Shown piece by piece: positions 169 to 44,240 of a stretch of 45,824 nucleotides of DNA. Below the pieces are notes generated by a model that had not been told where the DNA came from, searched no databases, and worked only from the letters and a program-made list of their open reading frames with translations. This DNA is from a virus. Where the stretch lies: the IMG/VR virus record IMGVR_UViG_3300002460_000052, positions 1 to 45,824 of that record; one strand, written 5' to 3'. How positions within the stretch are numbered: the stretch's first letter is position 1; every line of letters begins with the position of its first letter. Position numbers and translations under genes: made by a program.

Positions 169-260
169 GCCCCGATGGTGAAATTGGTAGACACTGCGGA
201 CTTAAAATCCGCCGCTTCCTGCAAAGGGGCGTGCCGGTTCGACCCCGGCTCGGGGCACCA
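169..260 (+). tRNA. tRNA-Leu (anticodon UAA), prophage integration target
   Basis: The acceptor stem pairs GCCCCGA (169-175) with TCGGGGC, followed by A and CCA at 258-260. The D arm carries AAATTGGTAGAC. The anticodon stem GCGGA/TCCGC encloses the loop CTTAAAA, which gives anticodon TAA. A long class II variable arm and a T arm with GTTCGAC follow. The gene is intact because the prophage copy of the last 21 bases restores the 3' end after integration. Confidence 0.97.
240..260 (+). other. attL: attL core (21 bp, inside tRNA-Leu)
   Basis: The 21 bases from the T loop to the CCA end are identical to 44220-44240. Identity stops on both sides: T against C at position 239, T against C at 261. 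Integration into the 3' end of a tRNA with the integrase gene next to it is the usual arrangement for tyrosine integrases. Confidence 0.92.
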
Positions 261-487: not shown

Positions 488-985
488 ATGGCTTCTGCCG
501 ATCTTACCGCCGACATTGCGCGGGAATACCTATCCTACGACCAGAGCACCGGAGAACTTCGGTGGAGATTCGATCATTGGGGTAGGAAAACTGGAGAATT
601 GGCTGGTGGGCTTCACAAAAGCACTGGATATATGCGTGTAAGTCTGCTGGGGAAAAAAATCAGTGCGCACCGCCTCATATGGCTCATGGTTCATGATGAA
701 TGGCCGCCTATGCTCGACCACATCAACGGTATCCGCACTGACAATAGGCTGGAGAATCTTCGTGTAACTGATTCACTCCTCAATAGCCAGAATAGGAGAG
801 CGCCTTCTGTTGGATCGAGCGCTTCTTTGCTTGGGGCGCAGATGCACAAAGCTAGTGGACTATGGAAGTCCACAATCCGCAGCGGAGAAAAGAAGATCAG
901 CCTTGGTCTATTCGCCACGCAAGAAGAGGCGCATGCAGCCTATGTTCAGGCTAAGCGCATCCTTCATAAGGGAAACACGCTGTAG
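488..985 (+). CDS. HNH endonuclease with AP2-like DNA-binding domain
   Basis: A 165-residue homing-type nuclease. An HNH_3-like core spans about residues 58-95, with H61-R62, D77-H78-N80 and the N-x-L-x-N-L-R-V tail (N86, N90). A C-terminal AP2-like module (about 110-158) has the ISLGxFxTxEEAHAAY pattern. Such proteins cut DNA site-specifically and usually spread their own gene. The ATG at 488 follows a GAAGGGA ribosome-binding site. The gene is richer in A and T than its neighbours, which suggests separate acquisition. It ends four bases before the integrase start, so the two are probably co-transcribed. It could also take part in packaging, but its place away from the terminase argues against that. 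Confidence 0.85.
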   Translation: MASADLTADIAREYLSYDQSTGELRWRFDHWGRKTGELAGGLHKSTGYMRVSLLGKKISAHRLIWLMVHDEWPPMLDHINGIRTDNRLENLRVTDSLLNSQNRRAPSVGSSASLLGAQMHKASGLWKSTIRSGEKKISLGLFATQEEAHAAYVQAKRILHKGNTL

Positions 986-989
986 CCGA

Positions 990-2018
990 ATGGCCACCCC
1001 CAAGCAGACATCAGCGGGCACCTGGCGCGTGCAGATCGAGGTGCGCGGGCAGCGCGATGCTGGCACACACCCCACCAAGCGCGCTGCGCTGGAGTGGGCG
1101 GCGCGGCGGCGCATGGAGTTGCTGGCGGCGGGCGACGGGCGCACGGGCGAGATCAAGACGCTGCAGGATGCGCTTGACCGCTACGGGCGCGAGGTGTCGC
1201 CCTCGAAGCGGGGCGAGGTCAAAGAGCTGCTGCGCCTGCGGGCCTTCCCCAAGCAGGCGGACTTTCCGGCGCGGATGCGGCTGGCTGACCTGCAGCCGTC
1301 GCACCTGGCCGCGTGGCGTGATGGGCGGCTGGCTGTCAATGCGCGGGGCGCTGTGCTGCGTGACATGACGCTGGTGTCGCATGTGCTGGAGGTGGCGCGG
1401 CGCGAGTGGCGTTGGATTGCCAGCAACCCCATGGCGGACGTGCGGCGGCCGGCAGAGCCTGACCACCGCGAGCGGATCATTCAGCCTAGCGAGGTGCGGC
1501 GCATGCTGCGCGCGATGGGGTGGCGCGGCCGGGCGCCTGTGCGCAGCGTGGCCCAGGCGGTGGGGTGGTGCTTTGTGCTGGCCCTGCAGACGGGCATGCG
1601 GGCGGGCGAGCTGTGCGGGCTGCGCTGGCAGGACGTGCGCGGCGACTTTGTGGTGCTGCACGCGGGCGAGACAAAGACCGGCAAGGGGCGCGAGGTGCCG
1701 CTATCGCCCACGGCGCAGCGCAGCATTGCGGCCCTGCGCGGGTGGGATGAGGCGCTGGTGTTTGGCCTGCGGGCGCAGACGTTGGATGCCATGTTTCGCA
1801 AGTACCGGGGCCGGGCCGGGTTGGAGGGGTTCACTTTTCACGATGCCCGCCACACCGCAGCCACGCGCCTGGCGCCGGTGGTGGATGTGCTCACGCTGTG
1901 CAAGATTTTTGGGTGGTCCAGCGCCACCCGCGCCCTGGTGTACTACAACCCCACCGGGCGCGAGCTGGCGCGGCGCATCAGTGGTGTTGGCTCTGCTCCC
2001 ACTCCACAATCTCGCTGA
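990..2018 (+). CDS. int: Tyrosine-type site-specific integrase
   Basis: A 342-residue phage integrase that catalyses recombination between attP and the tRNA-Leu attB. The N-terminal arm-binding part has TWRVQIEVRGQR. A SAM-like core-binding domain lies at about 55-165. The catalytic domain carries R204 (TGMRAGE), K229 (TKTGKGR), H284-x-x-R287 (HDARH), W309 in place of the second His, and tyrosines Y318/Y319 as nucleophile. The ATG at 990 matches the usual N terminus of the family; a frame extension upstream overlaps the HNH gene and is less likely. The ribosome-binding site is weak. The gene points inward from attL, opposite to the early operon, and its 3' end overlaps the end of that operon by 41 bp. 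Confidence 0.95.
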   Translation: MATPKQTSAGTWRVQIEVRGQRDAGTHPTKRAALEWAARRRMELLAAGDGRTGEIKTLQDALDRYGREVSPSKRGEVKELLRLRAFPKQADFPARMRLADLQPSHLAAWRDGRLAVNARGAVLRDMTLVSHVLEVARREWRWIASNPMADVRRPAEPDHRERIIQPSEVRRMLRAMGWRGRAPVRSVAQAVGWCFVLALQTGMRAGELCGLRWQDVRGDFVVLHAGETKTGKGREVPLSPTAQRSIAALRGWDEALVFGLRAQTLDAMFRKYRGRAGLEGFTFHDARHTAATRLAPVVDVLTLCKIFGWSSATRALVYYNPTGRELARRISGVGSAPTPQSR

Positions 2019-13665: not shown

Positions 13666-14351
13666 GCTGCACCGCCTTCCTGTTCCACCACCACCAGCTG
13701 CCCGGCCTGCGTGATGCCGATCTGCTCGCCGCTGGCCTCCAGCTGCTTGACCAGCTCCATGGCGTCGTCCTGCCACGCCTCGGCATTGCGCCATGCGCGG
13801 TCAAGCTCGCTCTGCAGCCGCTCGGCGCGCTCGTGGGCGGCTTCCAGCTGCTGGTGCAGGCTGACCGACAGGGCGCGCAGGTGGTCCAGCTCCCAGCGCT
13901 CCAGGCGCTTGCGCAGGGCGGCGATGGTCTTGGCTTGCGCTGGCGCCGGGGCGGCCGTGCCGCCAAAAGAATTGAAGGATTCAAGAATCAATCTGCGGAC
14001 GGCAACAGCTGAGCCCTCAAAGCTCTTGCTGTAGATGCCCTGGAGGCCGCTGTAGAAGTAGAAAAACCAGGCGTATGAGGCGTCTGCGGCTTCCTTGTTC
14101 GACCAGCACCAGGCTTCTGGCAGGTGGTCTTTGCAGTGGGCAAACAGCAGGGACTGTTCTTGCGGGGTGGGAAGTTCGCCGCCCACGCTGGCGGCCCAGT
14201 CTTTTGCGGCCTGCCAGGTCAGGCCCGCTTTGGGCCGCGCGGGCAGCAGGACCAGGTGGTGCTGGTAATCGCCTGCTTCATTGAGCACGATGCCGCCGAT
14301 GCGCTCGCCGGGGCGCAGGGCGGGGGTGCTGGTGGTTGGGGTGGGGTGCAT
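13662..14351 (-). CDS. DUF1566-like domain protein with coiled coil
   Basis: A 229-residue protein. Residues about 40-125 match the DUF1566/Lcl pattern: GELPTPQEQSLLFA, AWCWSNKEAADASYAWFF, then a terminal SAVAVRRL. Residues 140-200 form a long coiled coil. A short VVVEQEGGAA tail follows. The DUF1566 fold resembles C-type lectin domains and often mediates binding. The GGAGG ribosome-binding site at the ATG 14351 lies in a 34-bp leader that is repeated before the gene at 14952. No reverse transcriptase or template repeat is seen, so this is not a diversity-generating target. Confidence 0.7.
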   Translation of the reverse strand: MHPTPTTSTPALRPGERIGGIVLNEAGDYQHHLVLLPARPKAGLTWQAAKDWAASVGGELPTPQEQSLLFAHCKDHLPEAWCWSNKEAADASYAWFFYFYSGLQGIYSKSFEGSAVAVRRLILESFNSFGGTAAPAPAQAKTIAALRKRLERWELDHLRALSVSLHQQLEAAHERAERLQSELDRAWRNAEAWQDDAMELVKQLEASGEQIGITQAGQLVVVEQEGGAA

Positions 14352-14380
14352 CGATTCCTCCAGGGCGCCGGGGTGGCGTG
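14347..14380 (-). repeat. 34-bp leader repeat, copy 1 (copy 2 at 14948-14981)
   Basis: Identical to 14948-14981. On the minus strand it contains CTGGAGGAATCGATGCA, which provides the ribosome-binding site and start codon for both adjacent genes. Copy 2 begins exactly at the predicted start point of the leftward early promoter, so it equals that transcript's whole 5' leader. Confidence 0.85.
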
Positions 14381-14400: not shown

Positions 14401-14952
14401 TTACTCGCCGCGCGCTTGTGTGCTGCTGCGGCTCTTGGATGGGTGGGCGCCCGTGCCTGTGGCTAGACTGGTGCTGTCAACACAACCAATCTCGCCACAG
14501 GAGGGCGCCCATGAAACAAAAACCCCAAATCGACGAAGTGCTGTTTGCGCAAGCCGTGCAACTCGCTGGCGCATGGCTGCCAGTGGCTGGTGATGCAGAT
14601 GTGGATCTGCGGGACCGCCTGCGCGTGTTTGTGTTTGAGACGTATCAGTCGCTCGAAGCTGCGCGCGTGGAGATTGAGGACTGGCTTGAGCAGGTTGGCC
14701 CAGTGAGTCGCTGAGGCCCATCCACCGCGCTTCGCGCAGCCAGGTTGCAGGCTGCGGAATAAAACGCGCGTTGGCGCCTGCCCATTGCGGCTGGGCGGTC
14801 ATCTTGCATGCCGCCAGCGCAATGCTTTGCTGCAGCTCGGGCGATGGGTTCAGCCGTCGCCAAGCTGCGATTGCCTCAGCCCGGCCCTGCTTGCGCGGGT
14901 AGGCATTCCAGAATTCGTTGAATCCGCAGTGGGTGGCGGTGGTGGCTTGCAT
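14401..14952 (-). CDS. Phage replication-associated protein with extended C terminus
   Basis: First gene of the leftward early transcript, 183 residues. Residues 10-80 (FNEFWNAYPRKQGRAEAIAAW, then GANARFIPQPATWLREARWMG) match the C-terminal domain found in many phage replication and helicase-loader-like proteins, which usually end just after this motif. Here the frame runs on for about 100 residues of low-complexity sequence antisense to the gene at 14511-14714, so the normal stop has probably been lost. The ATG at 14952 has a GGAGG site seven bases upstream. Function in replication is inference. Confidence 0.65.
   Translation of the reverse strand: MQATTATHCGFNEFWNAYPRKQGRAEAIAAWRRLNPSPELQQSIALAACKMTAQPQWAGANARFIPQPATWLREARWMGLSDSLGQPAQASPQSPRAQLRATDTSQTQTRAGGPADPHLHHQPLAAMRQRVARLAQTALRRFGVFVSWAPSCGEIGCVDSTSLATGTGAHPSKSRSSTQARGE
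14511..14714 (+). CDS. Small acidic protein antisense to the early operon
   Basis: A 67-residue protein (MKQKPQIDEVLFAQAVQLAG, ending in DWLEQVGPVSR). It has a strong AGGAGG site before ATG 14511 and a natural helical composition with good codon use. It lies on the opposite strand of the C-terminal extension of the gene at 14401-14952. No promoter is obvious. It may be a lysogeny-expressed gene, because it is transcribed against the early leftward message. Function unknown. Confidence 0.6.
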   Translation: MKQKPQIDEVLFAQAVQLAGAWLPVAGDADVDLRDRLRVFVFETYQSLEAARVEIEDWLEQVGPVSR

Positions 14953-14988
14953 CGATTCCTCCAGGGCGCCGGGGTGGCGTGTGGGGAA

Positions 14989-15029
14989 ATTCTAGCTCAA
15001 CGCTAGAAATATGCAAGCTGATAGCTAGA
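14989..15029 (-). promoter_or_regulatory. Leftward early promoter PL with two operators
   Basis: On the minus strand -35 TTGCAT (15016-15011) and -10 TAGAAT (14994-14989) are 16 bases apart, with a start point near 14982. A perfect palindrome TTCTAGC-N5-GCTAGAA (14990-15008) covers the -10. A second, imperfect one, GCAAGC-N5-GCTAGA (15013-15029), covers the -35. Their centres are 22 bp apart, two helical turns. This is the expected design of a repressor-controlled promoter. Confidence 0.8.
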
Positions 15030-15083
15030 TTTTTTTCTGTTGCATTGCGTTACGATGGCGTCGGAGTCTGTATGGAGGTGAAG

Positions 15084-15707
15084 ATGTCCGGTCGTTTTCT
15101 TGTTGGGTTAGTGCTTCTTGTCGCAGCCGGACAGGCGTGTGCGCTTAATAAGTGCACGGCGACAGACGGAAGGGTTTCTTACCAGGATGCGCCGTGTTCG
15201 GCTGGTGCGGCATCAGCGCAGATTGCGGTGCCGATGGGGCCTAAAGAGGCAGCGGAGCAGTGGAAATTTGCTAAAGAGAAGGACGCGATGACAGGTGTAG
15301 TGACCTGTTTTGCGTACTCGCCGTCTGTTTCAACAAATTGGGGGCGTGGTGGTTATTCGTATTCGCTTGTTTACTTGCAGCTGGCCGTTTCGCGTGATGC
15401 GGCATCTATGGTGCTAAGTGTTCGAGCAAGTGAATACAAAGATGGAATTTTTCACAACGACATATCCGGCCAAGGTATTAAGCCAGACAATGGGGATTTT
15501 TTTCCGCTAATCGAGAAATACGGACAGCGTGGTCTTGGTATTGGTCTGGGAAAGGCAGGGCCTTTGATTGGGGCGCTTCAAAAATCTAAAAGTTTTTCGA
15601 TGCGGTTGCGTTTTTGGCCGTATGAGAAGCTGCACGATACGCCGCCAGTCTCTCTTGCTGGATTCGATAAAGCAATTCGCTCTGCAATGGATTGCGGTGC
15701 AAATTAG
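15084..15707 (+). CDS. Secreted DUF4124-domain protein, lysogenic cargo candidate
   Basis: A 207-residue exported protein. A signal peptide (MSGRFLVGLVLLVAAGQACA) has a cleavage site near residue 20. A DUF4124-like segment follows (KCTATDGRVSYQDAPC). The C-terminal 140 residues include VVTCFAYSP, LSVRASEYKDG, and SMRLRFWPYEKLHD, with a terminal AIRSAMDC; paired Cys suggest a periplasmic disulfide fold. The start at 15084 follows GGAGGTG. It lies beside the repressor, outside both early operons, in an A/T-richer stretch. That is the position of lysogenic conversion genes such as rexAB in lambda. The function of the C-terminal domain is not recognised. Confidence 0.7.
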   Translation: MSGRFLVGLVLLVAAGQACALNKCTATDGRVSYQDAPCSAGAASAQIAVPMGPKEAAEQWKFAKEKDAMTGVVTCFAYSPSVSTNWGRGGYSYSLVYLQLAVSRDAASMVLSVRASEYKDGIFHNDISGQGIKPDNGDFFPLIEKYGQRGLGIGLGKAGPLIGALQKSKSFSMRLRFWPYEKLHDTPPVSLAGFDKAIRSAMDCGAN

Positions 15708-15774
15708 TTGTTTGGTGGTCGTTTTGTTTGTTTCGAGTGGAGGCGGAGGGGGAGCGTATAGATTCTTGCGGTGC

Positions 15775-16251
15775 TTATGAGTGTTTCCTATGTTTTCCGT
15801 TATCTATATTCTTTTTCTCCCATGTTGAAACCATTCCGTCAAGATAGGCGTCTATTTCCAAGCGCGCCTGTCTCGGAAGGTCCATAAATCGTTTGTATGT
15901 CACCTGTTTAAATGGCCAGGTATTGATTGGCATGATGGCGCAAGAATCTGCGGAGGCGCCGGTATCTTGGGCGATGTGCTGTCGTTCGCTAGGTAGTGTG
16001 TTTATCCAGTCGGGCGACCTGTCATTTGCGTAATGTTTTGCGATGGCCTTTGCAAACGCTAGAGTAATTGGCCTTGGCGCCCCATCGCTTTTTGGTTTGC
16101 GCTGGTAAATCTGATAGATGTATTCCTCGCTTCGTCCGAGACGGGTTGCCACGGCCCGATAGCCTGCGCGCAGACTTCCAGCCTCTTGAGCTTCCTTGTC
16201 CACTATTTCCTTGAAGTGGGCGAGCCAGATTTCTTCTAGATTCATGAGCAT
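15775..16251 (-). CDS. CI-like phage repressor
   Basis: A 158-residue protein. Residues about 25-70 hold a helix-turn-helix (GYRAVATRLGRSEEYIYQIYQ, then LAFAKAIAKHYA). The C-terminal part (about 100-150) is short and lacks the Ser/Lys of the S24 LexA-like peptidase, so it is not a classical RecA-cleaved repressor. It is divergent from the Cro-like gene, with shared operators between them. Both ATG 16251 and ATG 16245 are possible starts. It should bind TCTAGC-N5-GCTAGA sites and maintain lysogeny. It is transcribed toward the DUF4124 gene; no strong terminator separates their convergent ends (15708-15774). Confidence 0.8.
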   Translation of the reverse strand: MLMNLEEIWLAHFKEIVDKEAQEAGSLRAGYRAVATRLGRSEEYIYQIYQRKPKSDGAPRPITLAFAKAIAKHYANDRSPDWINTLPSERQHIAQDTGASADSCAIMPINTWPFKQVTYKRFMDLPRQARLEIDAYLDGMVSTWEKKNIDNGKHRKHS

Positions 16252-16254
16252 GAT

Positions 16255-16319
16255 TCAAGCATCTAGCTAGAAGAAAAAACGAGCTTGGGGCTTGAAGAAA
16301 TCTAGCTGTGTGCTAGACT
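16255..16319. promoter_or_regulatory. Rightward promoter PR and operators between repressor and cro
   Basis: A perfect operator TCTAGC-TGTGT-GCTAGA lies at 16301-16317. A one-mismatch copy TCAAGC-N5-GCTAGA lies at 16255-16271. The -35 TTGAAG (16292-16297) and -10 TAGACT (16314-16319) are 16 bases apart, with the -10 built from the operator's right arm exactly as at PL. The predicted start point (about 16326) abuts the cro ATG, so that mRNA may be leaderless. The repressor's own promoter is not clear to me. Confidence 0.8.
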
Positions 16320-16326
16320 TTGGGCC

Positions 16327-16617
16327 ATGCCGCTTCCAAAACTCCCTACTGCGCGCCGCCGCGAATTGGCCAATCAGGTCGGTGTCGGTGAGCAGTATCT
16401 CTATCAGATTCTTCGCGGAATTGGTGTTGCGAGTCCCGCGCTGGCGCGCAAGCTGAATGCTTTTGAGCCGCTGTTGAGGCTTCAAGACCTCCGCCCAAAT
16501 GACTGGAATGACCTCTGGCCGGAGCTTGCCGACCCCAAGCCAAACCAGCCCCAAGCCACCGCCCATCAAGCGCGGGTAGCTATCAATTCCGAAGCAATGG
16601 AGGCCGCCCATGGGTGA
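16327..16617 (+). CDS. cro: Cro-like regulator
   Basis: A 96-residue protein. Residues about 8-50 (RRRELANQVGVGEQYLYQIL, then ASPALARKLNAF) form a YdaS/Cro-type helix-turn-helix with the same YIYQI/YLYQI recognition-helix feel as the divergent repressor. The last 17 residues (from about HQARVAINSEAM) are encoded by a host palindromic repeat and are unlikely to be original. No ribosome-binding site precedes the ATG; the promoter start lies within one or two bases, so leaderless translation is likely. Expected role: block repressor synthesis during lytic growth. Confidence 0.8.
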   Translation: MPLPKLPTARRRELANQVGVGEQYLYQILRGIGVASPALARKLNAFEPLLRLQDLRPNDWNDLWPELADPKPNQPQATAHQARVAINSEAMEAAHG

Positions 16618-17028
16618 TGCGCCCAACGCCCCGCGCCGTGGCCTGTCGCCCCAGGCGGTGATGGCCTCGCTCAGCGCCGAGCGCGCTGCAGTTCTTCGTC
16701 GTTCGGCAGGATGGTGTTTTGCGCCGTCGCCAGTGCATTGGTCATTGCGTCTGGCCATGTGCCTGCCAGCGCTATTCCGGCAAATCGGTCGAGGTGTTCG
16801 CACACTGTCTCGATCGCTTTCTCTGGGTCGGGGTGGCAAGCAATGAGGGCGCGTATGGCTACCTGTGCTGCCAGCACCTTGCCCTCCAGCGCCTCGATGC
16901 GTGCGCGGGCTTCTTCGTCTTTCATTTTCTGCCTTGGTGGGTTTGTGTTCAATGGCAATAAAGCGCCCGCCCATCAAACGCGGGTAGCTATCAATTCCGA
17001 AGCAATGGAGGAGGCCGCCCATGGGTGA
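16559..17028. repeat. Direct repeats (16559-16617 and 16967-17028) flanking an antisense gene
   Basis: The 59-bp copy and the 62-bp copy differ by one substitution and one 3-bp GAG duplication. Both contain a partial palindromic host repeat read in reverse and end in GGAGG...ATGGGTGA, an ATG with ribosome-binding site (16610 and 17021). They enclose the minus-strand gene 16671-16925. The layout suggests duplication-mediated insertion of that gene downstream of cro. Confidence 0.75.
16671..16925 (-). CDS. Small helical phage protein
   Basis: An 84-residue protein starting at ATG 16925 (MKDEEARARIEALEGKVLAA). The first 35 residues are a probable coiled coil, followed by CHPDPEKAIETVCEHLDRF, similar to small proteins found singly in Burkholderiales prophages. 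It lies antisense to the rightward early transcript and between the direct repeats. Function unknown. Confidence 0.6.
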   Translation of the reverse strand: MKDEEARARIEALEGKVLAAQVAIRALIACHPDPEKAIETVCEHLDRFAGIALAGTWPDAMTNALATAQNTILPNDEELQRARR

Positions 17029-17100
17029 CGTCTTCGCCCGCATCGCTGTGCTGGATGCGGTGTATGGCCGCGTCAACCTGCGCCGGGTGTTCCCCGTAGG
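17021..17100 (+). pseudogene. Fragment of a tail tip gene (N-terminal part)
   Basis: From the ATG at 17021 the frame reads GDVFARIAVLDAVYGRVNLRR, aligning with residues about 36-60 of this prophage's own large tail protein (GNIFPKVSRVDSVYGRVNLRK at 34684-38121). Similarity ends near 17100, after which the frame is antisense to the next gene. The divergence shows that it came from a related phage, not from a recent copy of the local gene. It is probably a recombination scar. Confidence 0.6.
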
Positions 17101-17372
17101 GCAGCCAGCTCCCGAACGTATCGCTGCCGATCTGATAGCAGGGTTGACCATTGCTGCCAAACATCCGGCCGTTGCATGTCTGGCGGCAGCCCTTCGGCAA
17201 GCCGTAGCAGCGCAGCGTCGTATTCCTCCGCAATCGCAGGCAGGGCCTGCGGATCCACTCGATCCAGTAGCGCCTCCAGCATCGCCTCGGTGGCCAGCTG
17301 GCGGTTCAGGTGCGTCAGCTGCGTGTTGTTGATCTCTGCAATGGCCTGCATCACCTGTTTCTCGAATGTCAT
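17073..17372 (-). CDS. Small helical phage protein
   Basis: A 99-residue all-helical protein (MTFEKQVMQAIAEINNTQLT, later PPDMQRPDVWQQWSTLLSDR). A GAGG motif precedes the ATG at 17372. Composition and codon use look genuine. It overlaps the tail gene fragment on the other strand at its 3' end. It is divergent from the gene at 17462 with 89 bp between them, which may hold promoters for both. No family recognised. Confidence 0.65.
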   Translation of the reverse strand: MTFEKQVMQAIAEINNTQLTHLNRQLATEAMLEALLDRVDPQALPAIAEEYDAALLRLAEGLPPDMQRPDVWQQWSTLLSDRQRYVRELAALRGTPGAG

Positions 17373-17789: not shown

Positions 17790-18035
17790 TCATGCCTCCA
17801 GCAGTTGCTGCAGCCGTGCCAGTGCGTTCACTTGTGGTGGCGGCGCGCTGCCGGTGGCCTGCATGCGCTCGCGGGCCAGGGTCATCCAGCGCATCAGCGC
17901 GTCGGCATTCAGCTTGCCTTGTGCATCCAGCACAAACACGAGCTGCTGCGCAAACAGTTCCAGCGCGGCCACGCGGTCGGGCAGTGTGGGTTCAACGTGT
18001 GCCGCTGCGGCGGCTTGAGAGGGGTTTGAGTTCAT
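17790..18035 (-). CDS. Small helical phage protein overlapping the CII-like start head to head
   Basis: An 81-residue protein (MNSNPSQAAAAAHVEPTLPD, then VAALELFAQQLVFVLDAQG). Its ATG (18035-18033) and that of the CII-like gene (18034-18036) share the bases CATG, so the two genes start on top of each other in opposite directions. Composition argues that it is real. The nearest AGGAA is rather far upstream of the start. Antisense control of the CII-like message is conceivable. Confidence 0.6.
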   Translation of the reverse strand: MNSNPSQAAAAAHVEPTLPDRVAALELFAQQLVFVLDAQGKLNADALMRWMTLARERMQATGSAPPPQVNALARLQQLLEA

Positions 18036-18582
18036 GAAGGCAACTATCTCTGTTCCTGCCGGCCTTGCCTATGTCGATGGCGAGTCCGTGCCCGACACGC
18101 CGCAGTTGATGAGCGTGCCCGATGCCATCTATCACACGGTGCACAGCTACCCCGGCGGCGTGGCTGCGCTGGCGGCGCGCATGGGCCTGCCGGTGGGCAC
18201 GCTCACGCACAAGGCCAACCCGAACAACCCCACGCACCACATGCGGCCCGATGAGCTGGTGGCCATGCAGCATTTCAGCGGCGATGCGTCGGTGCTCATG
18301 GCCATGGCTGCGGCGCTGGGCTATGCCGTCACACGGGCCACGCCAGACCAGTCCGGCGGGCACCTGGGCGCCGCGCTGGTGCGCTTCCAGGTCGAGGTGG
18401 CCGACTTTGTGCGCGCTGTGGGCGAGCCTGCCGAGCGCCTGGCTGAAGACCCCGCCAAGCACGCTACCGGCAACGAGGTGCGCCGGGCCGACTACCACGC
18501 CCAAGAGGTGCAGGCCGCCATGAGCCACACGCTGGGCGCACTGCGCGGCCACATGCGCCCGGCGCCCAAGGCGGGGGCCTGA
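18034..18582 (+). CDS. Phage regulatory protein CII family
   Basis: A 182-residue protein of the CII-type regulators found in Burkholderia and Pseudomonas phages (unlike the short lambda CII). Key stretches: VPDAIYHTVHSYPGGVAALA, LPVGTLTHKANPNNPTHHM, and DELVAMQHFSGDASVLMAM, which carry the helix-turn-helix and ligand-like region at about 28-100. Expected role is activation or repression of early phage genes in the lysis-lysogeny decision. ATG 18034 is used; an internal ATG at residue 26 is an alternative with no better ribosome-binding site. The stop overlaps the next ATG as TGATG. Confidence 0.85.
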   Translation: MKATISVPAGLAYVDGESVPDTPQLMSVPDAIYHTVHSYPGGVAALAARMGLPVGTLTHKANPNNPTHHMRPDELVAMQHFSGDASVLMAMAAALGYAVTRATPDQSGGHLGAALVRFQVEVADFVRAVGEPAERLAEDPAKHATGNEVRRADYHAQEVQAAMSHTLGALRGHMRPAPKAGA

Positions 18583-22839: not shown

Positions 22840-24923
22840 CCACCCTGCCCACCATCCACCCCGAGACGGCCGAAGCCATCAAGGCCGCCGTGCGCCTGGG
22901 GCTGGAGAGCCTGCGGGCTGAGCCGCCGCAGCGGCTGGGTGATTGGGCGCGCGACCACTTCAAGCTGGCGGGCGAGAGCAGCCACACCAAGGGCGCCTGG
23001 GTGGCATGGGCTTTCCAGGTGGGCATTCTCGACTTCATGAGCGACGACCGGATCGAGGAGCTGGACGTGATGAAGGCCAAGCGCGTGGGCTACACCAAGA
23101 TGGTGACCGCCTACATCGCCTACAACGTGGCCCACCGCCGCCGCAAGCAGGCCCTGTGGCAGCCCACAGACGATGACCGTGATAGCTACGTCAAGAGCGA
23201 GATTGACCCGGTGCTTGACCCCCTGACGGGCGTGCCTGCCGTCAACAAGGCCCGCAGGCGCGGCAAGGGCGCCAGCGAAGAAACCATCAAGTACAAGCCC
23301 TTCCGCGATTCGGCCCTGCACCTGCTGGGCGGCAAGGCATCGCGGGCGTATCGGCGCATCACCGTGGCCGCGGCCATCCTCGACGAAATCAGCAAGTTCG
23401 ACCGCAGCATTGAAAAAAGCGGCCCGCCGCGCGGCCTGGCCCGTGGGCGGTTGGAAGGTGCGCCATACCCCAAGCTGGTATGCGGCAGCACGCCCCTGCT
23501 CAAAGGGCTGTGCCACATCGAGGACGCGGTGGACGAGGCCGAAGGCCTGGTGCGCTTCCACATCGATTGCAAGCACTGCGGGCTTGGGCATCCGTTGATG
23601 TGGGGTGGCAAAGACAAGGCGCACGGCTTCAAGTGGGAGCGCGGCAACCCCGCCAGCGTGCGCCACGTCTGCCCGCATTGCCGCAAAAGCATCACCCAGG
23701 CCGACTACATGCCCGGCGGCACGCCCGTGGGCGGCGCCTGGGTGTGCGAGCGCACCGGAAAGACCTACGGCCCCGACCGCGTGTGGCGCGACAACAAAGG
23801 CATGCCCTGCCGCCCGCCGCGCAGCCTGGCCGTGCATGTGTGGACCGCCTACAGCCCGCAGCGCGCCTGGTCCGACATCGTGACCGAATTTGAGAACGCC
23901 CTGAAGGCGCTGGAAAAGGGCGACGTGGGCCCCATGCAGCTGTTCGTGAACGAAACCCTGGGCGAGACCTGGGAGCTGGCAGGCGAGCGCACCGACGAAC
24001 ACGCCCTGCAGGCCCGGGCCGAACCCTACAAGCTGTGCACCGTGCCGCGCGGCGCGCTCATCCTCACCGCCGGGGTGGACGTGCAGCGCAACCGCTGGGA
24101 AATCACCGTGTACGGATGGGGCAGGGGGCTGGAGAGCTGGGTGGTGGACGTGGCTGTGCTGGAGGGCAACCCGGCCGTGGACGAGGAATGGGGCGCCGTG
24201 CTCGAGTACCTGCAGCGCCGCTACCCGCAAGAGGCTGGTGGCCTCACCATGGGCATCAGCGCCACCAGCATCGACAGCTCCGACCAGACCCAGGCCGTGT
24301 ACAGCTGGGTCAGCAAGGCGCAGCACATGCTGAAGAACCTGCGCGCCATCAAGGGCGACGGCAACGACAACGTGCCACTGCTGGGCCCCAGCAGCCTGCA
24401 AGAAATCAACTGGCGCGGCCGCAAGGTGGCGCGCGGCATCAAGCTGTGGCGCGTGGGCGTCGATTCGGCCAAAGACTTGCTACTGGGCCAGCTCTCCATT
24501 CAGCAGCCCGGCCCCGGCTACGTGCACTTTTCCGACGAACTGCCGCGCGAGTTCTATGAGCAGCTGACCGCCGAACAGCGCGTGCTGGCCCGCGTCAACG
24601 GGCGCGAGGCATACCGCTGGATCAAACGCCGACCGCGCAATGAGCAGCTGGACAACCGCAACTACGCCATGCACGCCGCCATGGGGCTGGGCCTGCACAA
24701 GTACACCGATGCGCAGTGGGAGAGGCTCGAAGCCGCTGTGCAACCCCCAGCCGACCTGTTCAGCCCGCCGCAGCAAATACAAGTAAAAACAGGCTCTAGC
24801 GCTTATGCAGAAAGCGCAAGCAGCTATCAAAATAGTAGCGCACAAGCCCACAAACCACCCACCCCAAAAGGAAAGCCCACGCATGCAGCCACAGACGGAT
24901 GGTCTTTTGACCGCAGAGCCTGA
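22836..24923 (+). CDS. Terminase large subunit (GpA family)
   Basis: A 695-residue packaging motor of the lambda GpA type. The ATPase carries a Walker A-like KAKRVGYTK (80-88) and Walker B ILDEIS (D183-E184). Two CxxC pairs (C245/C248, C279/C282) suggest a zinc ribbon. The nuclease domain begins near D415 (LTAGVDVQ). The enzyme cuts concatemers at cos and pumps DNA through the portal. The last 40 or so residues (rich in Ser, Ala, Gln and Pro) are encoded over a host palindromic repeat at 24786-24838 and probably are not native. The ATG at 22836 overlaps the small subunit stop. Confidence 0.95.
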   Translation: MTTLPTIHPETAEAIKAAVRLGLESLRAEPPQRLGDWARDHFKLAGESSHTKGAWVAWAFQVGILDFMSDDRIEELDVMKAKRVGYTKMVTAYIAYNVAHRRRKQALWQPTDDDRDSYVKSEIDPVLDPLTGVPAVNKARRRGKGASEETIKYKPFRDSALHLLGGKASRAYRRITVAAAILDEISKFDRSIEKSGPPRGLARGRLEGAPYPKLVCGSTPLLKGLCHIEDAVDEAEGLVRFHIDCKHCGLGHPLMWGGKDKAHGFKWERGNPASVRHVCPHCRKSITQADYMPGGTPVGGAWVCERTGKTYGPDRVWRDNKGMPCRPPRSLAVHVWTAYSPQRAWSDIVTEFENALKALEKGDVGPMQLFVNETLGETWELAGERTDEHALQARAEPYKLCTVPRGALILTAGVDVQRNRWEITVYGWGRGLESWVVDVAVLEGNPAVDEEWGAVLEYLQRRYPQEAGGLTMGISATSIDSSDQTQAVYSWVSKAQHMLKNLRAIKGDGNDNVPLLGPSSLQEINWRGRKVARGIKLWRVGVDSAKDLLLGQLSIQQPGPGYVHFSDELPREFYEQLTAEQRVLARVNGREAYRWIKRRPRNEQLDNRNYAMHAAMGLGLHKYTDAQWERLEAAVQPPADLFSPPQQIQVKTGSSAYAESASSYQNSSAQAHKPPTPKGKPTHAATDGWSFDRRA
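24786..24838 (-). repeat. Comamonad-type palindromic repeat, copy B (inside terminase 3' end)
   Basis: The minus strand reads TTTTGATAGCTGC, then TTGCGCTTTCTGCATAAGCGC and TAGAGCCTGTTTTTA, the clearest copy of the element in the window. It is read through in frame by the terminase gene. Confidence 0.8.
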
Positions 24924-44219: not shown

Positions 44220-44240
44220 CGACCCCGGCTCGGGGCACCA
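44220..44240 (+). other. attR: attR core (21 bp)
   Basis: Identical to 240-260 in the 3' end of tRNA-Leu. It is the displaced copy of the tRNA end and marks the right prophage border. Host sequence continues 16 bases upstream of the next gene's start. Confidence 0.92.

Follow-up and report, generated by a model that had tools for sequence, protein, structure and literature searches.

Lambdoid switches that depend on a non-cleavable repressor have already been described in several prophages. In CP-933P of E. coli O157:H7 (PaaR2/YdaS/YdaT), the operators at PRM/PR that a short peptidase-less CI-like repressor and its Cro-like partner bind overlap, both proteins repress PL, and the matched OR and OL operators, which flank a cargo operon, have been footprinted and assayed (PMC8630535). 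The OL operators of CP-933P lie upstream of the repressor-cargo operon, PaaR2 is translated from a leaderless mRNA, the region includes a CII-like activator, and PaaR2, which has no peptidase motif, is unresponsive to mitomycin C and shows bistable switching (PMC8630535). The repressors GfoR/GfhR of Gifsy-1/-3 and GtgR of Gifsy-2 are also short (136 aa) proteins of lambdoid prophages without a cleavage domain, and it is established that they are inactivated by antirepressors, which Gifsy encodes in a LexA-controlled operon (PMC3121763). Small SOS-independent antirepressors act in other prophages (PMC10432266), and the repressor of Salmonella phage SPC32H (Rep/Ant; PDB 5d50, 5d4z) is disassembled by its antirepressor (PMC9638917). 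In telomere phage PY54, both the cI and the cro mRNA were mapped as leaderless (PMC4488713). The P2 C protein is described as a short repressor whose target DNA, in contrast to that of most dimeric repressors, is not palindromic (PMC4752584).

We analyzed a 45.8-kb stretch of DNA, hereafter the window, and the region between its leftward operon and cII is very probably the immunity region of a complete lambda-like prophage with a non-cleavable repressor, two operator clusters and competition by Cro. The prophage is thus a new case of the kind represented by CP-933P (PaaR2/YdaS) and Gifsy (GfoR). The likeness to CP-933P, drawn by description, extends to the predicted plan of the operators, the position of OL, the leaderless repressor mRNA and the CII-like activator; however, the CP-933P operators are GTTTAGTAA inverted repeats, four of which make up OR while OL has three operators, and its cargo is a toxin-antitoxin pair (PMC8630535). 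As in lambda, operator clusters are located at pL and at pR/pRM, the 17-bp sites are about two helical turns apart, and the CI/Cro/CII order is kept. In contrast to lambda, the operator is unrelated, the repressor has no S24 domain, there are two rather than three left sites, the left and right clusters are separated by a shorter distance (1.3 kb), and cro is predicted to be leaderless. The predicted leaderless starts are shared with PY54, where, however, Cro binds a single site (OR3) and the prophage is a linear plasmid (PMC4488713). The arrangement of the palindromes in two clusters sets the locus apart from a P2 C-type switch.

Gene content of the prophage

The window contains a whole prophage of ~44 kb inserted at a tRNA-Leu gene. 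Its ends and the genes of the switch are as follows.

240-260, plus strand: attL-like 21 bp, the 3' end of the tRNA-Leu gene (169-260)
44220-44240, plus strand: attR-like sequence, an exact copy of the attL 21 bp
810-2018, plus strand: prophage integrase, adjoining the left end (PF00589, 2e-20, at window 1485-1949)
14401-14952, minus strand: first gene of the leftward operon, replication-initiation-like (phrog_270, 4e-18)
15084-15707, plus strand: cargo gene between OL and the repressor, encoding a secreted-type DUF4124 protein (PF13511, 1.1e-5)
15775-16251, minus strand: prophage repressor, 158 aa, HTH plus C-terminal WPF segment, without an S24 domain
16327-16617, plus strand: Cro-like HTH protein, 96 aa (phrog_35, 3e-7; sub-threshold HTH_3)
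18034-18582, plus strand: CII-like activator (Phage_CP76; Pfam PF06892, 7e-27; phrog_101)

Beyond the integrase there are genes for a terminase, a portal, a head protease, a tape measure and further tail proteins, and the leftward operon contains replication-, methyltransferase- and AlpA-like genes. The resulting order, leftward operon, OL, cargo, repressor, OR, cro and cII, is lambda-like. Three hallmarks of a lambdoid OL/OR switch are present at the sequence level: divergent repressor and cro genes with predicted operators over both promoters, another cluster with this operator at the predicted leftward early promoter, and the CII-like activator downstream of cro.

The cargo gene is convergent with the repressor gene and occupies the slot of lambda rexAB; its promoter may overlap OL2. 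Two repeats were observed nearby. One of ~50 bp (90%), at 14332-14380 and 14929-14981, spans the ribosome-binding region of two consecutive leftward genes. The other is an imperfect duplication (about 91%), at 16553-16617 and 16961-17028, that comprises the 3' end of cro and the start of the next gene, flanks about 0.4 kb and has the look of a scar left between cro and cII by recombination or insertion. In addition, three small ORFs between cro and cII (16671-16958, 17073-17372 and 17790-18035) lie on the minus strand, opposite to the rightward operon; they have no PHROG match, and are possible lysogeny genes or antirepressor candidates.

Predicted operators, promoters and starts

Operator sites were scored by the number of matches among the 12 arm bases of TCTAGC-N5-GCTAGA.

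14991-15007, no strand: OL1, TCTAGCTCAACGCTAGA, exact palindrome (12/12), one of two exact copies in the genome
15013-15029, no strand: OL2, GCAAGCTGATAGCTAGA, 10/12, 22 bp centre-to-centre from OL1
16255-16271, no strand: OR3, TCAAGCATCTAGCTAGA, 11/12
16279-16295, no strand: OR2, weak candidate, ACGAGCTTGGGGCTTGA, 9/12, 24 bp from OR3 and 22 bp from OR1 centre-to-centre
16301-16317, no strand: OR1, TCTAGCTGTGTGCTAGA, exact palindrome (12/12)

In the scored 45.8 kb, only the four strong sites reach at least 10/12; these four matches at up to two mismatches compare with a shuffle mean of 0.64, and one of 100 shuffles reaches four. Exact TCTAGC-N5-GCTAGA occurs twice in the whole 3.77-Mb genome, at OL1 and OR1, one copy per cluster. 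Sites of at least 9/12, the grade of OR2, have a density of 2.2e-4 per base when the four strong ones are left out. The tetranucleotide CTAG is strongly depleted in the window (21 copies against ~55 expected from trinucleotide counts), so that the crowding of 11 of the 21 copies into 14.4-16.4 kb is itself unusual. A one-mismatch copy 4.2 kb beyond the window falls outside the prophage and was disregarded. OR3 also holds an overlapping spacer-less 10-bp palindrome, TCTAGCTAGA (16262-16271), which could alter the seating of Cro or the repressor there.

The sequence-only reading had located four operator copies in just two places and had proposed a scan of phage and host for further ones; all four are present, and the genome has no exact copy besides OL1 and OR1. 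The weaker fifth site at 16279-16295 had been overlooked, and the right cluster probably has three sites. The layout predicted from sequence is thus probably one of two left and three right operators, spaced 22-24 bp centre-to-centre.

The candidate promoters overlap these sites.

14989-14994, minus strand: predicted pL -10, TAGAAT, overlapping OL1
15011-15016, minus strand: predicted pL -35, TTGCAT (3/6), overlapping OL2, 16 bp upstream of the -10
16292-16297, plus strand: predicted pR -35, TTGAAG (4/6)
16314-16319, plus strand: predicted pR -10, TAGACT, with an upstream TGC (extended -10), ending 7 nt before the cro ATG
16258-16263, minus strand: candidate pRM -10, GATGCT, weak (3/6), ending 6 nt before the repressor ATG (16251)

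Direct reading confirmed the earlier statements that the -35/-10 spacing is 16 at both pL and pR and that an operator arm overlaps the -10 (TAGAAT, TAGACT) at each. Both promoters are weak, each matching the consensus at 8 of 12 positions, and a promoter scan at a threshold of 9/12 gave no match. The position of GATGCT, the pRM candidate, matches that of TATGCT or TATTCT in relatives.

For the promoters overlapped by the right operators, the predicted transcription starts are the ATG codons of the repressor and of cro, and both mRNAs are therefore probably leaderless. A -10-like hexamer (at least 4/6, with A2 and T6 fixed) ends 6-7 nt before 8 of 13 repressor and cro starts, compared with about 1-2% of all ATGs in these regions; three of those starts, in relatives, had been selected anew from several possible codons, in part for their fit. 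The relatives have TATGCT, TATTCT, TATCAT or TAAACT at the same distance, and a Shine-Dalgarno sequence is usually absent. The leaderless mRNAs mapped in PY54 and CP-933P make this a trait with precedent among switch genes.

From the observed sites, their spacing, the domain content and the conservation of the layout, we infer binding, promoters, looping, leaderless starts and an antirepressor, which would work together as follows. The short repressor and Cro would be rivals for a single set of palindromic operators, two of them at pL and three where repressor and cro diverge. Of these three, OR1 would cover pR, the promoter of cro, and OR3 would cover pRM, the promoter of the repressor, with the weak OR2 between them. 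In the lysogen, repressor dimers would occupy both clusters, probably bridged by higher-order contacts, and thereby shut pR and pL while tuning pRM via OR3; Cro would oppose the repressor, and CII would aid the establishment of repression. Both divergent mRNAs would probably begin at or beside their AUG, and the switch would be thrown by a protein that strips the repressor off DNA or by a bistable fall in the repressor level.

A repressor without a cleavage domain and its induction

The 158-aa repressor has no match to the S24 peptidase domain, as the sequence-only reading had stated, which places it outside the self-cleaving CI/LexA class and within the Gifsy-type size range (about 130-160 aa). 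A search of the genome found no S24 protein in the prophage, the sole one detected being encoded on another contig. Without this domain the repressor would be unable to cleave itself, and induction is therefore most likely to proceed via an antirepressor or a bistable drop in level. How such a repressor is inactivated had been called an open question; this stands for the present phage but not for the class, for which antirepressors are established (PMC3121763).

An SOS-independent inducing step, brought about by a phage regulator that answers another signal, by a host protease or by inducer-free bistable switching, comes close to an even chance of being correct. It fits the prophage, where no convincing LexA box was found and near matches fall inside coding sequence, as well as the mitomycin C-insensitive, bistable behavior of the peptidase-less PaaR2 (PMC8630535) and the small SOS-independent antirepressors known elsewhere (PMC10432266); however, no candidate gene emerged, and database searches gave no match for several of the small ORFs within 16.6-18.0 kb. 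The only exact CTGT-N8-ACAG in the prophage, at 23154, lies within the terminase gene and was rejected as a LexA box.

SOS-driven induction via a LexA-controlled antirepressor, the established answer for short repressors in Gifsy phages (PMC3121763), is possible but on the doubtful side. Of 13 genomes from the genus, 10 encode LexA, and one lexA locus has a CTGT-N8-ACAG box near the gene; the LexA DNA-binding domain was not found in the phage's own genome (G000, a 94%-complete assembly), which is probably an assembly gap. On the other hand, the prophage lacks a convincing LexA box, no DinI/Tum/Ant-like or other known antirepressor family was recognized among the proteins scanned (a subset of ORFs), and no counterpart of the Gifsy antirepressor operon was found.

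Recognition helices and relatives with the same plan

It is very unlikely that Cro or some other regulator of the phage is the main protein to recognize the operators, with the 158-aa protein not being the maintenance repressor. Such a view could draw on database searches, in which this protein has no significant PHROG match and a sub-threshold Pfam match, and on its single-sequence structure prediction, which is of low confidence (pLDDT 55) and confident in the HTH part only; a fold search with this model gave nothing significant, and the top match, SPC32H 5d50 (E 0.09), is a lead only. Yet a profile of six short WPF-type repressors, the family of this protein, matches the DNA-binding domains of 434 repressor and 434 Cro at 1e-6. 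Moreover, its gene and cro point away from each other, an operator covers the start of the repressor gene itself, the search for S24 proteins found no such repressor in the prophage, and the recognition helices SEEYIYQI (repressor) and GEQYLYQI (Cro) have similar cores, EEYIYQI and EQYLYQI. Across seven loci, a small set aligned by eye, matched repressor/Cro helices are more alike than mismatched ones (identity p=0.005, all 5040 permutations; p=0.03 with the window left out).

No close phage relative was found in INPHARED, by DNA or by repressor protein, and a scan of genome contigs with the repressor gave no match. An IMG/VR contig that encodes a 100% identical repressor does not differ from the window in the part compared, save for one N, and was not counted as independent evidence. 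Other Burkholderiales also have short repressors built in this way, from an HTH and a C-terminal WPF segment. One relative, L028, is from another genus and has a 30% identical repressor; more distant short proteins share the HTH and the WPF segment. In L028, where CII- and tail-protein-like ORFs come after the repressor locus, AAAGNATNCTTT forms a pair of sites 24 bp apart on the left and recurs at both pRM and pR, with four matches at up to one mismatch against 0.23 expected and none of 200 shuffles reaching four. L077 has TAAGNATNCTTA in the same arrangement (four matches vs. 0.92 expected), and the statistically weaker L084 has TAGCNNNNGCTA (five matches, equalled by 30 of 200 shuffles); all these operator words were picked by eye from the intergenic region before counting. 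Paired clusters that flank the repressor with different palindromes are thus predicted in two relatives and probably in a third. L078 keeps the three-site right array, and no clear left cluster was found in the stretch read for L078, L079, L081, L083, L026 and L029, or they are not clearly phage. The distance from the repressor end to OL is roughly 0.7-1 kb in the window and L077, leaving room for a cargo gene, vs. almost none in L028 and L084. In L034, a 154-aa protein with hydrophobic stretches and no Pfam match is predicted at 672-1136 (minus strand), on the repressor's strand and directly downstream of it, between the repressor and OL; it is possibly a lysogenic conversion or exclusion gene.

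The conservation of the plan while the operator word changes fits a functional immunity system, unlike chance palindromes. The proposal that the locus copies the logic of lambda OL/OR is thus supported by the position of the sites, their low chance expectation and the relatives. That the palindromes are chance or promoter-composition artefacts is scarcely credible: some overlap is expected, as the operator arms share TAGA/TAGC with -10 elements, but both exact genome copies fall at this locus, the palindromes form two regularly spaced clusters, the rest of the window is poor in CTAG, and L028 and L077 keep the layout with other words.

An unlikely further possibility is that the WPF-tailed short repressors constitute a family of their own in Burkholderiales with a common compact design: repressor and cro mRNAs that are leaderless and come from operator-overlapped -10s, paired OL/OR clusters, recognition helices of repressor and Cro that co-evolve as the operator changes, and an undescribed SOS-independent induction via the WPF segment. 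The general picture of lambdoid switches is unchanged. The locus provides, from outside the enterics, a lambda-type switch that has a non-cleavable repressor, is complete in sequence and can be tested, and related loci show the same plan with other operators; it may help to predict immunity groups from the recognition helices of the two regulators, repressor and Cro, and to find how Burkholderiales prophages without a self-cleaving repressor become induced.
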